DNA of 55,357 bases from contig SCRJ01000172.1 of NCBI GenBank assembly GCA_004298115.1, positions 1-55,357 of the forward strand, in the 5' to 3' direction. Positions 16,897 to 25,820 of the stretch are shown piece after piece (positions within the stretch are counted from its first letter, which is position 1; every line of letters starts with the position of its first letter). A model generated the notes under the pieces. It was not told the origin of the DNA. It searched no databases and saw only the letters and a list, made by a program, of their open reading frames with translations. The DNA is from Acidobacteriota bacterium (lineage in GTDB: Bacteria; Acidobacteriota; Thermoanaerobaculia; Thermoanaerobaculales; Thermoanaerobaculaceae). The position numbers and the translations under genes are program-made.

Positions 16897-18258
16897 TCAG
16901 TCTAGATCAACCTCGACGCCCAGGCGCCGGAGCTTCCGCGTCAAGGTCTTGCGCTCGATGCCGAGGATGCGGGCGGCCGCGCTCTTGTTCCCCCCGGTCG
17001 CCGACAGGACGCTCACGAGGTGCCTCCGCTCGGCCTCCTCGAGGCTCGCGAGCGGCGCGCCGGCCGTGGCGGGGGCGACCGGACCGGGCGCCGTCCGCGG
17101 CGCGGCGCCGCTCGTCGCGAGCGCCTGCCGTACGGCGGCGGCGTCGGCGAGGCTGCGGGCGTCGATCAGGACTCGGCGCACGACCTGCTCGAGCTCGCGC
17201 ACGTTTCCGGGCCAGGCGTACTCGGCGAGCGCCGCGAGGGTCTGGGCGGTCGCGGCCGGCGTCGGGGCGATGCCGAGCTCGCGTTCGGCTCGCCCCTGGA
17301 AGTGGGCGACCAGGGCGGGCAGGTCGGCGAGCCGTTCGCGCAGCGGCGGCAGGCGGATCTCGTAGGCGGCGAGGCGGAAGTAGAGGTCCTGGCGGAAGCC
17401 GCCGGCGGCGACGAGCGCCGCGAGGTCGCGATGCGTCGCCGCGAGCACGCGCACGTCGACGTGCTCGCCGGCGTCCGCGCCCAGAGGCCTGACCACACCG
17501 TCCTGGAGGAAGCGGAGCAGCTTCACCTGGAACGCGGCCGACACGTCCCCGATCTCGTCGAGGAACACCGTGCCGCCGGCCGCCTGCGCGAGCGCCCCGC
17601 GCCGGTCGCGGTGGGCGTCGGTGAACGCGCCCTTGCGGTGGCCGAACAGCTCGCTCTCGAGCAACGTGTCCGGGATCGCGCCGGAGTTCACCGGCACGAA
17701 CGGGCTCGACGGCTCGGTGCCGAAGCGGTGCAGCGCCCTCGCCACCAGCTCCTTGCCGGTCCCGGTTTCGCCGAGGATCAGGACCGGCACGTGCAGCCGG
17801 GCGACGCGGACGATCGCCTTGTAGACCTCGACGATGGCGGGGTGCGAACCGACGATCATCGTCTCGGGCCCGGGTTCGCGCGCCGGCCCGGGGGCCGCCG
17901 GCGGCGACAGCGCGGCGGCCACGCGCTCGAGCAGGACCTTGACGTCGAACGGCTTGGCGAGGTAGTCGAAGGCTCCGAAGCGGCTCGCCAGCGCGGCCGT
18001 CTCGACCGTGCCGCGGGCGGTGATGAGGATGAGCCGCGGCGGCGACGGCCGGCGCTGCAGCTCGGCGAGGAGGTCCAGACCGGTCCCGCCGGGCATGTAG
18101 ATGTCGCAGACGACGAGGTCCGCAGGGTCGCGCGCCAGGGCCTCGCCGGCGGCGGCGACGTCCCCGGCGAGGGCCACGACATGGCCGGCCGTCCGCAGCG
18201 CGAGGGCGACCATCTCACGGATGCCGCGGTCGTCATCGACGACGAGGATCTTCGCCAA
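16897..18258 (-). CDS. Sigma-54-dependent response regulator (NtrC family)
   Basis: 453 aa. Receiver domain 1-120 with the acidic pocket VVDDD, phospho-acceptor Asp52, Lys102. AAA+ domain about 135-370: Walker A GETGTGKE (163-170), sigma-54 contact loop GAFTDA (210-215, Asp where GAFTGA is usual), Walker B GGTVFLDEIGD (228-238), sensor region FRQDLYFRL. C-terminal Fis-type helix-turn-helix (GGNKSAAARILGIERKTLTRKL) near 420-445. It activates transcription by RNA polymerase with sigma-54 after phosphorylation. The cognate kinase lies 10 nt upstream. Possible targets are the two TGGCAY-N5-ATGC promoters at 24.5 and 25.5 kb. The GAFTDA variant occurs naturally in some activators and does not by itself mean loss of function. 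Confidence 0.95.
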   Translation of the reverse strand: MAKILVVDDDRGIREMVALALRTAGHVVALAGDVAAAGEALARDPADLVVCDIYMPGGTGLDLLAELQRRPSPPRLILITARGTVETAALASRFGAFDYLAKPFDVKVLLERVAAALSPPAAPGPAREPGPETMIVGSHPAIVEVYKAIVRVARLHVPVLILGETGTGKELVARALHRFGTEPSSPFVPVNSGAIPDTLLESELFGHRKGAFTDAHRDRRGALAQAAGGTVFLDEIGDVSAAFQVKLLRFLQDGVVRPLGADAGEHVDVRVLAATHRDLAALVAAGGFRQDLYFRLAAYEIRLPPLRERLADLPALVAHFQGRAERELGIAPTPAATAQTLAALAEYAWPGNVRELEQVVRRVLIDARSLADAAAVRQALATSGAAPRTAPGPVAPATAGAPLASLEEAERRHLVSVLSATGGNKSAAARILGIERKTLTRKLRRLGVEVDLD

Positions 18259-18268
18259 CGCTGGCCTC

Positions 18269-20104
18269 CTACCGCCCGGCCGGTATCGCGAGCCGGAACA
18301 CGCTGCCGCCGCCGTCCGGGCTCGCCACGGTCACGCGGCCCCCATGCCACGTTAGCACCTCGCGGACGAGGGCGAGGCCGAGCCCGAGCCCTTCGCGGCC
18401 CTGCGCCGCCGCCCCACGCGCGAAGCGGCGGAAGATCACCTCCTGCTCCTCGCGCGGGACGCCGCACCCGTGATCGCGGACCTCGACGATCACGTCGGGT
18501 GCCGCGGCGAACGCGCGCACCTCGACCGGCGCCTGGGCGGGCGAGAACTTGAACGCGTTGCCGAGCAGGTTGTCGAGCGCCCGCTCGAGCAAGCCGGCGT
18601 CGCCGCGTACGCGCAGGCCGGGCGCGACGTCGGTGCGGACCGTGCGCCCGTGCCCGCGGCCGAGCACCTCGGCGCGGCCACACACCAGCGCGGAGAGGTC
18701 CACGTCGGTCACGGCGCCGGAGAACGGGCGGCGCGACAGCCGCTCGAGCTCGGTGAGGCGCTCGATCATGGTCTGCAGCCGATCGGTCTCGGCGACGAGG
18801 AGTTCGCTCGCGCGGCGGTGCTCGTCGGGCGAGAGGTCGAGGTCGCGCAGCATCTGGCCGAGCCCGCGCACCGAGGTCAGCGGCGTTTTCAGCTCGTGCG
18901 CCATCACCCGCCGCGCGTCCTCCTCGGCGACGCGGCGGCGGGCCGCGGCCGTGGCGAGCTCCTCGACGATGCCCAGACGGCCCTCCAGCGAGCCGCGGCC
19001 GGAGGGCACGTCTCCGCCGCCGGCGGCCGCGAGCACGGCGCCCGTCGTGCCGGCGCTGCGCCAGGCCACGAGGCCGTTCCTGGCCTCCATGCCGACGACG
19101 AGCAGCAAGGCGAGGGCGGCGAGGGTGGCGGTCGGCAGGACGACATCCGCCAGGCGGAGGAGGAGGAAGCCGACCACGAGCGGAACGGCGAGGAGCAGGA
19201 GGTCGCCGGCAAGCCGCCGCCCGCCGCCGAGACGCGAGACCGCGCCGGCCGCCAGCCCGAGCGCCAGCGCCGCGACGCCCGCAAGCAGGGGCGAGATCGG
19301 ATGGAGGAGGTCGCCGCCGGCGATCGCCTCCGTGACGGCCGCCTGGACGAGGACGCCGGGGTCGGGGATGGGGCCGCGCGTCACCGGCGTGACGACGCGG
19401 TCGCCGAGACCGGCGGCGGTCAGGCCCACGAACACGATGCGCCCCCGCAGAGCGCCGCCCCCCTGACCGCGCAGTAGGCGAGCGGCGCTCACCGCCGGCA
19501 CCGACTGGGGCGCCGCGCGGAACCCGGGTTGCACCACCTGCGCCACCGGGATCGCCGACGCCGGGGACGCCAGCGCCGCCGCAACGAACGCCACCGCCGG
19601 AATGGCGGCGCCTGCCGCCTGCTTGGTCGAGACGAGGCGGCGGAGCACGCCGTCGTGGTCGAGCTCGAACATCCCGTGGCCGAGCCGCGCGGCGTCGCCA
19701 AGCGGCGGGACCGGCGCGAGCCAGCGCGCGGCGCGGTTGTCGAGCGTGGCGACGAGCACGGTGGGGAGCGACCTCATCGCCCGGGCAAGGGCGGGGTCGT
19801 CGGCGCGGGCGTCGAGCAGGAGGATGTCCAGCACGACGCCGCGGGCGCCGGCGTCGCGCACCGCGCGGACGAGATCGGCGAGGCGCGCTCGCGACCAGGG
19901 CCACGGTCCCTCCGCCGCCAGGGAGGCCTCGTCCACGACGACCGCCGCGACCAGCGTGGGCGCGCGGCGCGGCAGCGTGCGCTCCATCGCGTCGCGCAAC
20001 GGCAACTCGAGGCCGCGCAGCGCGTCGGTCGCCGTCGCCGCCACGACCGCAAGCGCGACCGCGACCGCCAGGCTGGCCCAGCGCGGCGTCGGCAGAGCCT
20101 TCAT
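18269..20104 (-). CDS. CHASE2-domain sensor histidine kinase
   Basis: 611 aa. First membrane segment near residues 10-28; a periplasmic CHASE2 domain follows (VVVDEASLAAEGPWPWSRARLA, GARGVVLDILL, GRIVFVGLTAAGLGDRVVTP, DPGVLVQAAVTEAI); then about three membrane helices (about 270-345); then the kinase core with HisKA AHELKTPLTSVRG (His near 403), N box NLLGNAFKF, G1 DHGCGVP, G2 GLGLGLALV. All catalytic motifs are intact. Partner of the NtrC-type regulator immediately downstream and of FecR. The signal is unknown. The ATG lacks a Shine-Dalgarno; TACACT ends 6 nt before it, predicting a leaderless message. Confidence 0.93.
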   Translation of the reverse strand: MKALPTPRWASLAVAVALAVVAATATDALRGLELPLRDAMERTLPRRAPTLVAAVVVDEASLAAEGPWPWSRARLADLVRAVRDAGARGVVLDILLLDARADDPALARAMRSLPTVLVATLDNRAARWLAPVPPLGDAARLGHGMFELDHDGVLRRLVSTKQAAGAAIPAVAFVAAALASPASAIPVAQVVQPGFRAAPQSVPAVSAARLLRGQGGGALRGRIVFVGLTAAGLGDRVVTPVTRGPIPDPGVLVQAAVTEAIAGGDLLHPISPLLAGVAALALGLAAGAVSRLGGGRRLAGDLLLLAVPLVVGFLLLRLADVVLPTATLAALALLLVVGMEARNGLVAWRSAGTTGAVLAAAGGGDVPSGRGSLEGRLGIVEELATAAARRRVAEEDARRVMAHELKTPLTSVRGLGQMLRDLDLSPDEHRRASELLVAETDRLQTMIERLTELERLSRRPFSGAVTDVDLSALVCGRAEVLGRGHGRTVRTDVAPGLRVRGDAGLLERALDNLLGNAFKFSPAQAPVEVRAFAAAPDVIVEVRDHGCGVPREEQEVIFRRFARGAAAQGREGLGLGLALVREVLTWHGGRVTVASPDGGGSVFRLAIPAGR

Positions 20105-23849: not shown

Positions 23850-24434
23850 TCAGACCGTGAACGGGATGACGACCTCGTCCTTCGGCAGGCGGATCAGCAG
23901 CTCGTAGCGGCCCTTCTGGACGCCGTTGGGAAGATTGAAGTAGAGGCGTCCATAGGAGTTGTGGAACTGGTCGAGCCACGCCGAGTCCCAGACGATGCCG
24001 ATGCCGCGCGGCGCGAACAGGCGCAGGAAGCGAGGGCGCTGGGGTATGAGGTAGTCGAGCGGTTCTCTGGCCACGCGGGCCCGCATCAGGGTCGAGGCCA
24101 GCTCTGGGTAGTGCATCTCGAACTCGGCCTGGGTGGCGAGCGGAACGACGGAGCCGTCCGGCGTCCGCACCGCGATCGCGCTCCTCGGGATCTCGACCGG
24201 GTTGGAGGTGGCGGTCATCGCGGTGTCGAGCAGGAGCCATTTCCCCTCGGGGTTGTACCTGGCGAACCGATCCGAAACCACGACCTGAATCTGCGGGCCC
24301 TTGTACACGATCGCCGTTGCACCGACCTGCGTGAGCTGTACGGCCGGGCCCGCGTGCGCGACCGCCGCCGTGCCGACGAGCGTGCCGAACGCCGCGACCA
24401 CCACTCCCGTGCGGCGCAACCAATTGGTCTTCAT
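23850..24434 (-). CDS. Exported protein A of a tandem paralogous pair, unknown function
   Basis: 194 aa. Signal peptide MKTNWLRRTGVVVAAFGTL... ending VAHA-G. Start at 24434 chosen because the signal peptide begins there and AGGAAT precedes it. The mature domain is shared with protein B (24825-25406): IVYKGPQIQVVVSDRFARYNPEGKWLLLDT, IPRSAIAVRTPDGSVVPLA, YPELAS, FHNSYGRLYFNLPNGVQ, and an almost identical end KGRYELLIRLPK-EVVIPFTV. Predominantly beta; no catalytic motif recognised. Preceded by a sigma-54-like promoter 79 nt upstream and followed by a strong hairpin, so it is a single-gene unit. Function unknown; the repeated phrases about position-specific residues suggest a ligand-binding or envelope role. 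Confidence 0.82.
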   Translation of the reverse strand: MKTNWLRRTGVVVAAFGTLVGTAAVAHAGPAVQLTQVGATAIVYKGPQIQVVVSDRFARYNPEGKWLLLDTAMTATSNPVEIPRSAIAVRTPDGSVVPLATQAEFEMHYPELASTLMRARVAREPLDYLIPQRPRFLRLFAPRGIGIVWDSAWLDQFHNSYGRLYFNLPNGVQKGRYELLIRLPKDEVVIPFTV

Positions 24435-24512
24435 AGATTCCTCCCGCCGGGCCGGCCACCCGGCCTGCCCGGCTCCGGGCGACCTTGCCATCGCCGCCCG
24501 TGCAAGTTGCTC

Positions 24513-24527
24513 GCATAAAGCGTGCCA
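24513..24527 (-). promoter_or_regulatory. Sigma-54-type promoter of paralogue A
   Basis: Minus strand TGGCAC-GCTTT-ATGC: the -24 GG and -12 GC are spaced as in the consensus TGGCAC-N5-TTGC. Upstream it shares GAYTGAGTC with the site before paralogue B. The -12 element lies 79 nt before the start codon. Confidence 0.65.
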
Positions 24528-24770
24528 TTAAGACTCAGTCTAGGCGAGCTTCCCTGGCCGCAGTCGGGGTCCCCGACAGGATCCTGCTGTTGGGACGCGA
24601 GTTGCGGTAACGTCCAAGCCCGCCGTCACGATCGCGGCCTCAGGCCGTATCCTGTGCCGGTGCCAGGGGGCGTCCACCATTCAGGACGGGGTCGGACCGG
24701 GCGTTGCGGCCTGGCTGCTGTTGGGTGGGGGCTGGGGCGTCGGAGCCCTCGTCCCGCAGACCCGAAGCGC

Positions 24771-24803
24771 GGACGAAGAAACCGGTGGGCCGGCGCCTCC
24801 GGT
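24771..24803 (-). terminator. Intrinsic-type terminator after paralogue B
   Basis: Minus strand: stem ACCGGAGG / CCCACCGGT region with one mismatch and a GC loop, followed by TTTCTTCG. Located 22 nt after the stop of the gene at 24825. Confidence 0.5.
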
Positions 24804-24824
24804 AGCTTCCGGCACAGCACGAGG

Positions 24825-25406
24825 TCAGACGGTAAAGGGGATGACGACCTCGTTCTTCTCCAGTTGAATGAGCAGCTCGTACCGGCCCTTTTGGACGCCG
24901 TTCGGAAGTTGGAAGAAGAGACGGCCGTAGCAATTATGAAACGGGTCCAACACGGCCGAGGGCCACACCCACCCGACGCCGTGGATGCGGAATAGGTTCA
25001 GGGCTCGGTGGCGCTCCGGGAGGAAGTAGGCGAGGTGCTCCTCGAAGAAGTCCGCCTGGCGGATGGGCGAAGCCAGTTCCGGGTAGCCCTTCTCGAAGGC
25101 CTGTTGCGAGGCGAGGGGAACGACGTCTCCGCCGGGCGTTCGAACGGCGAACGCGCTCCTGGGAATGTTGATCGGCCCCCCGACGGCGCTCATCTCGGTG
25201 TCGAGCAGGAGCCAGCGGCCTTCGGGGTGGTAGTGGGCGTATTGGTCGGAGATCGCTACCTGAATTCGGGGCCCCTGGTAGACAGCGATGGTCGAGCCGG
25301 CGTCCGTGGCGGGTGCGACCCTGGTCTCCGCGTGGACGGTCGTGCCGAACATCGCGCCGAGGGCCGCAACAGCCGCGCCTGTACCGCACACAACGCTCAC
25401 TCTCAT
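24825..25406 (-). CDS. Exported protein B of a tandem paralogous pair, unknown function
   Basis: 193 aa with signal peptide MRVSVVCGTGAAVAALGAM...TVHA-E. Aligns with protein A over its whole mature length (IAVYQGPRIQVAISDQYAHYHPEGRWLLLDT, IPRSAFAVRTPGGDVVPLA, YPELAS, FHNCYGRLFFQLPNGVQ, KGRYELLIQLEK). It differs by a unique Cys (FHNCYGRL) and by a more acidic/aromatic middle (FFEEHLAYFLPERH). Same promoter type and same distance from promoter to start as protein A, so the duplication included the control region. No recognised family; the pair is probably co-regulated under sigma-54. Confidence 0.82.
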   Translation of the reverse strand: MRVSVVCGTGAAVAALGAMFGTTVHAETRVAPATDAGSTIAVYQGPRIQVAISDQYAHYHPEGRWLLLDTEMSAVGGPINIPRSAFAVRTPGGDVVPLASQQAFEKGYPELASPIRQADFFEEHLAYFLPERHRALNLFRIHGVGWVWPSAVLDPFHNCYGRLFFQLPNGVQKGRYELLIQLEKNEVVIPFTV

Positions 25407-25485
25407 GGTCGCCTCCCTGCGGTCGGGCCGAGGAGGCCCGTCCGGCTGCGGACGGCCTCAGAAGCGCCGCCCTCTCGGGCCCATT

Positions 25486-25500
25486 GCATAACCGATGCCA
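25486..25500 (-). promoter_or_regulatory. Sigma-54-type promoter of paralogue B
   Basis: Minus strand TGGCAT-CGGTT-ATGC followed by AA; GG and GC are 10 nt apart as required. Preceded by GATTGAGTC, matching GACTGAGTC at the other site. The -12 element is 80 nt before the start codon, against 79 nt for paralogue A. Confidence 0.6.
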
Positions 25501-25820
25501 CTGGGACTCAATCGTGACGGTTACGAACCGCAGCCCCCCGCCTCCGCCAGGAGCATGCAGCAGCTGGAGTTGTGCCTGTCTGCAACCTTGCCCCGGGGGC
25601 ACCGCTTCGACTCCACGCCGCCGGGTGCCGAGTCCCGATGTCCGCGCCGCAGGACGGGGCGGGGGAGGACGGCGGCGCCGGGCCCGGCCCCCGGTGGCGC
25701 CGGATCCGGGGCGCCGGCCACGTGCCGGAGGTTGGGCTTGGGCGGGCGAGCGTCGTCAGGTCGGGCGTCGCCGGTCCCCGGCGTCCCGGTGTCGAACGGG
25801 GACCGGAAACCGAGCCGCGC

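Follow-up and report, generated by a model that had tools for sequence, protein, structure and literature searches.

The closest described counterparts of the DNA elements discussed here are the QseF/GlrR promoters of the Enterobacteriaceae, such as those of glmY and rpoE. In these promoters, which share a cell-envelope theme, an inverted repeat is found upstream of a sigma-54 promoter. The site has been given as TGTCN10GACA (PMC8745638) and as TGTN12ACA (PMC6075780). The upstream region of E. coli K-12 glmY, which served as a positive control, contained three copies of the dyad. More broadly, sigma-54 has been described as a controller of the bacterial exterior, with lipoproteins among the associated envelope components (Francke et al. 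2011, PMC3162934). The text of that work mentions neither Acidobacteria nor the protein family or the enhancer-marked gene set reported here. The envelope theme of the genes reported here fits this picture. A search of papers available without subscription yielded no account of a sigma-54 regulon in Acidobacteria, which is weak evidence of its absence from the literature.

We analysed a stretch of 55,357 nucleotides of acidobacterial DNA (contig SCRJ01000172.1), referred to as the window. It contains two tandem genes, A and B, for exported proteins. Both are preceded by sigma-54-type boxes and, further upstream, by candidate enhancer dyads related to TGTC-N10-GACA. The arrangement is thus similar to that of the QseF/GlrR promoters, but it occurs in another phylum, usually with one dyad rather than three. 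Moreover, the acidobacterial targets are exported proteins, whereas the enterobacterial ones are a small RNA or a sigma factor. We consider it probable that the genes of the A/B family are transcribed by RpoN polymerase with the help of an activator at the upstream dyad, as part of a regulon of envelope proteins in the phylum.

Tandem genes and their sigma-54-type boxes

The two genes are located as follows:

24825..25406, minus strand: gene A, exported protein of 193 amino acids with a signal peptide and a predicted Ig-like beta sandwich
23850..24434, minus strand: gene B, paralogue of A, 194 amino acids, with a signal peptide

The initial annotation had described A and B as tandem exported paralogues of an uncharacterised family. 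The paralogy was borne out by the gene positions, by 58% identity between the proteins and by their common C-terminal tail, KGRYELLIxLxKxEVVIPFTV. The novelty of the family is supported as well, since no Pfam or NCBIfam model matches A or B. The signal peptides of both proteins are of the ordinary type, and many other family members have a lipoprotein-type signal.

Upstream of the genes, TGGCAY-N5-ATGC boxes and a common GAYTGAGTC had been noted, and we found all of them where they had been reported:

25486..25500, minus strand: -24/-12 box of A, TGGCATCGGTTATGC, sigma-54-type, kept in the orthologues (L007, L008)
24513..24527, minus strand: -24/-12 box of B, TGGCACGCTTTATGC, sigma-54-type, kept in the orthologues (L007, L008)
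25505..25513, minus strand: GATTGAGTC element of A, adjoining the -24 side of the box, kept in A/B orthologues
24532..24540, minus strand: GACTGAGTC element of B, adjoining the -24 side of the box, kept in A/B orthologues

Counted from the last base of the box to the first base of the start codon, the distance is 80 nt for A and 79 nt for B. Transcription would be expected to start near 25474 for A and near 24501 for B. The window has three matches to TGGCAY-N6-TGC, where 0.63 would be expected; the boxes of A and B account for two of them, and only one of 100 shuffles reaches three. GAYTGAGTC by itself is not rarer than chance, as 16 of 100 shuffles of the window reach two occurrences, but its place beside the box is conserved in three genomes, in each of the six regions upstream of A and B. 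Across the wider family, this type of element was seen only in A/B orthologues and in one further locus (L013), where it is recognisable as GATCGAGTC. The version of B, GACTGAGTC, is nearly palindromic and lies immediately 5' of the -24 element.

Extent and predicted fold of the family

The family of A and B is previously undescribed. The source genome (3.97 Mb) encodes four members, namely A, B, one on contig C137 and one on contig C28. With a single-sequence query, the family was found in 35 of 60 relatives. Profile searches detected it in 31 of 37 genomes of the order and in 44 of 396 Acidobacteriota genomes; the profile for the contig scan was built from a 10-member alignment. The named near matches are from acidobacterial metagenome assemblies. 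Among 52 family members, there was no consistent match to Pfam or NCBIfam at curated cut-offs, and a sequence search of the PDB with a family protein returned chance-level matches only.

An AlphaFold2 model shows a confident beta sandwich (pLDDT 84.8). The best structural match in the PDB is the secreted Ig-fold protein MPT63 (1lmi). The match is weak (E 0.005, TM 0.39 and 0.54, 10% identity), and a sequence relation between MPT63 and the family was not detected; the likeness, if real, would be that of a secreted beta sandwich. As far as prediction goes, the family proteins would have an Ig-like fold and would often be lipoproteins.

Boxes in the wider family and the age of the promoter

RpoN is encoded in the source genome. 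In the whole genome, the box pattern is not over-represented (53 occurrences, compared with 142 for the reversed control), and therefore it proves nothing on its own. For the family, we analysed the upstream regions of 77 relatives across Acidobacteriota. A near-consensus -24/-12 box was present within 130 nt upstream in 38 of them; on the opposite strand the count was 3 of 77, and dinucleotide shuffles gave 2.4%. The 38 boxed members share the GG and GC elements and the fixed spacing between them; the flanks vary, and so does the distance from box to start (about 40-97 nt). Members that belong to other classes of Acidobacteriota (f17, f65) have boxes as well. Conservation before homologues in other genomes shows decisively that the boxes are more than chance matches.

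About half of the family members lack a recognisable box, among them the C28 paralogue of the source genome. The genome scan for further boxes before homologues, proposed in the initial annotation, was run and identified the C137 paralogue as the third gene with a box (TGGCACAATCCATGC, 91 nt before the start). On a maximum-likelihood tree, presence of the box is strongly clustered, with 11 changes compared with 26 in shuffles. In a clade of 13 members from two genera, which includes A, B and the C137 type, the box is present without exception. The split between A and B falls inside one genus, and the box is uniform in the two-genus clade, so that the promoter must predate the duplication. The earlier suggestion that the duplication involved a sigma-54-type control unit before each gene thus holds, with the revision that the promoter is older than the A/B duplication and was inherited by it.

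The C28 paralogue (locus L006) has a perfect TGTCC-N8-GGACA (G000:C28:16398-16415) and a degenerate -12 element. The box is intact in the orthologues from sister genomes (L015, L016, L040, L044). The C28 promoter is possibly decaying or altered.

An enhancer-like inverted repeat

Spaced tetramers above the boxes were counted without a preset site in mind. In 33 regions, TGTC-N9-GGAC was found in 14, compared with a maximum of 6 in shuffles. TGTC-N10-GACA and GTCC-N8-GGAC followed with 13 and 12 regions. Together, these describe an inverted repeat TGTC-N10-GACA with the best form TGTCC-N8-GGACA, in a position like that of a sigma-54 enhancer. A dyad score of at least 8.5 was reached by 20 of 38 boxed members, by 2 of 40 unboxed ones and by 1.2% of shuffles.

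There are only four perfect TGTCC-N8-GGACA sites in the source genome, and two of them precede the family members on C137 and C28. For four randomly placed sites, a rough calculation by hand puts the probability that two would land in the 300 nt before any of four given genes at about one in two million. The other two perfect dyads, on C100 and C158, were taken as chance occurrences rather than functional sites, because they are in or near unrelated genes with no box close by. In the window, the candidate sites are less perfect:

25639..25656, minus strand: candidate enhancer dyad of A, CGTCCTGCGGCGCGGACA, differing from TGTCC-N8-GGACA at one position
24670..24689, minus strand: candidate enhancer dyad of B, CCGTCCTGAATGGTGGACGC, differing from TGTCC-N8-GGACA at two positions

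The coordinates of the B dyad were derived from the computed offset together with the sequence. It lies about 162 nt above the box, and the orthologues in two other genomes have the versions CCGTCCTGCAGGGTGGACAC and CCGTCCTGCAGGGGGGACAC. The orthologues of A in two other genomes lack a conserved counterpart of its dyad. As a putative activator site, the dyad is thus enriched family-wide, and within the window it appears clear for B and weak for A.

A wider set of genes for exported proteins

The combination of dyad and box is not confined to the A/B family. A composite site, defined as a dyad followed after 36-66 nt by a box, was found 84 times in 396 genomes of the phylum, compared with 7 times for the reversed pattern (totals counted from the table of scan output). 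When a wider gap between dyad and box was allowed in an order-level scan, 13 sites were obtained, six of them before family members. In a sample of genes below composite sites, 39 of 42 had an export signal by a crude hydrophobic-signal test, although the 42 are not independent cases, because several are orthologues of one another. Apart from the A/B family, the genes below composite sites include those for DUF6600 and VWFA-related (TIGR03436) proteins, an HtrA-like protease, a ComEA-like helix-hairpin-helix protein and a FecR-like protein. In the source genome, genes on C21 and C177, both apparently for exported proteins, each have a near-perfect dyad and a box. Since the same dyad-plus-box arrangement precedes many other genes for exported proteins, the A/B family appears to be part of a wider sigma-54 regulon.

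In the mechanism that we propose, RpoN (sigma-54) polymerase would be held in the closed state at TGGCAY-N5-(T/A)TGC, until an ATP-driven activator, bound at the upstream TGTCC-N8-GGACA or the looser TGTC-N10-GACA, opens it. The genes of this proposed regulon could be read by one activator, or by several of like specificity, and would probably answer to a condition of the envelope or surface. Whether the Acidobacteriota possess an undescribed regulon of exported proteins, with a single enhancer, TGTCC-N8-GGACA, that has the QseF/GlrR sequence and, at least in the source genome, a different activator reading it, we regard as an even question.

Acidobacteria are abundant in soil and hard to grow, and the control of their surface is little known. 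A set of surface-protein genes, unnoticed before, may be expressed in concert. With a DNA signature for envelope genes that have their mode of control in common, function could be inferred from co-regulation, and many unannotated exported proteins would gain a testable condition of expression. The data also raise the question of whether envelope control through TGTC-N10-GACA is common to Acidobacteria and enterobacteria by descent or by convergence.

In the source genome, some sigma-54-type boxes lack a dyad (L146, L159, L160, L177). These boxes precede a type IV pilin gene and genes that, judged by eye, resemble those for rubrerythrin, HtpX and an HtrA/DegP-type protease. Sigma-54 in this organism seems to serve several envelope or stress genes.

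Candidate activators for the dyad

The identity of the dyad with the QseF/GlrR enhancer, present in three copies before E. coli glmY (PMC8745638, PMC6075780), suggests that the activator could be a GlrR/QseF orthologue, which would make the system an offshoot, within Acidobacteriota, of the QseEF envelope system of enterobacteria. A GlrR-like DNA-binding tail is indeed present in two activators of the phylum (L277, L282). However, the source genome encodes about 17 full sigma-54 activators, and none of the 17 has such a tail. The nearest candidate, on C150, does not follow the composite sites: clear orthologues are present in genomes that lack such sites and missing from several that have them. 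An orthologue of GlrR is thus an unlikely reader of the dyad. The A/B unit would work like a QseF-type sigma-54 promoter, and the GlrR-type activator that defines a GlrR system was not found among the activators of the source genome. No activator was found that tracks the composite sites across genomes.

The window itself encodes a candidate, and the domains found in it agree with the initial annotation as a sigma-54 activator:

16897..18258, minus strand: NtrC-type response regulator with receiver, Sigma54_activat AAA+ and HTH_8 (Fis-type HTH) domains

Together with the CHASE2 sensor kinase (18269-20104), this protein could exert local two-component control of A and B. It is encoded only 6 kb from them on the same strand and has the domains of an activator, and in one sister genome (L057), too, the gene for this kinase lies close to the tandem. 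The suggested link to A and B did not hold up, however. The protein is one of about 17 activators in the genome, and linkage is not conserved: a homologue is absent from the flanks examined around two other family members in the same genus (L063, L064) and around the other two paralogues of the source genome (L005, L006). There is no enhancer dyad in the stretch examined around the activator gene (L080), and the dyad as such is phylum-wide, far beyond the A/B pair. Sigma-54 activators usually have a GAFTGA motif in the loop that touches sigma-54; here, the loop reads GAFTDA. Local control by this pair is therefore distinctly improbable.

It is more improbable still that the conserved block before A and B (GACTGAGTCCCAGTGGCAY), which is longer than a sigma-54 box requires, belongs to an ordinary promoter or is bound by a different regulator, and that its resemblance to a sigma-54 box is a coincidence preserved by descent. 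Against this reading, the 38 boxed members have GG and GC at constant spacing in common, amid variable flanks and distances, and the box comes with an enhancer-like dyad.

In addition to these readings of the A/B upstream regions, two individual candidates were set aside. A PilR-type activator was named by eye on C98, where its gene adjoins pilT- and pilC-like genes. The promoter of the pilin gene on C22 contains a sigma-54 box and no TGTC dyad, so that this activator is not an obvious reader of the dyad. The NmpR site of Myxococcus (GCGCA-N5-TGCGC) differs from the dyad in sequence.

The activators L277 and L282 come from one genus, and their C-terminal DNA-binding region is strikingly like that of E. 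coli GlrR. Their genomes contain several composite sites. Tandem pairs of dyads, for example TGTCCTAAAAATAGGACA followed by TGTCCTAAAAATGTGACA, are present at composite sites in the genus of G338 and G352 (at L234, L235 and further loci); they resemble the repeated sites before E. coli glmY.
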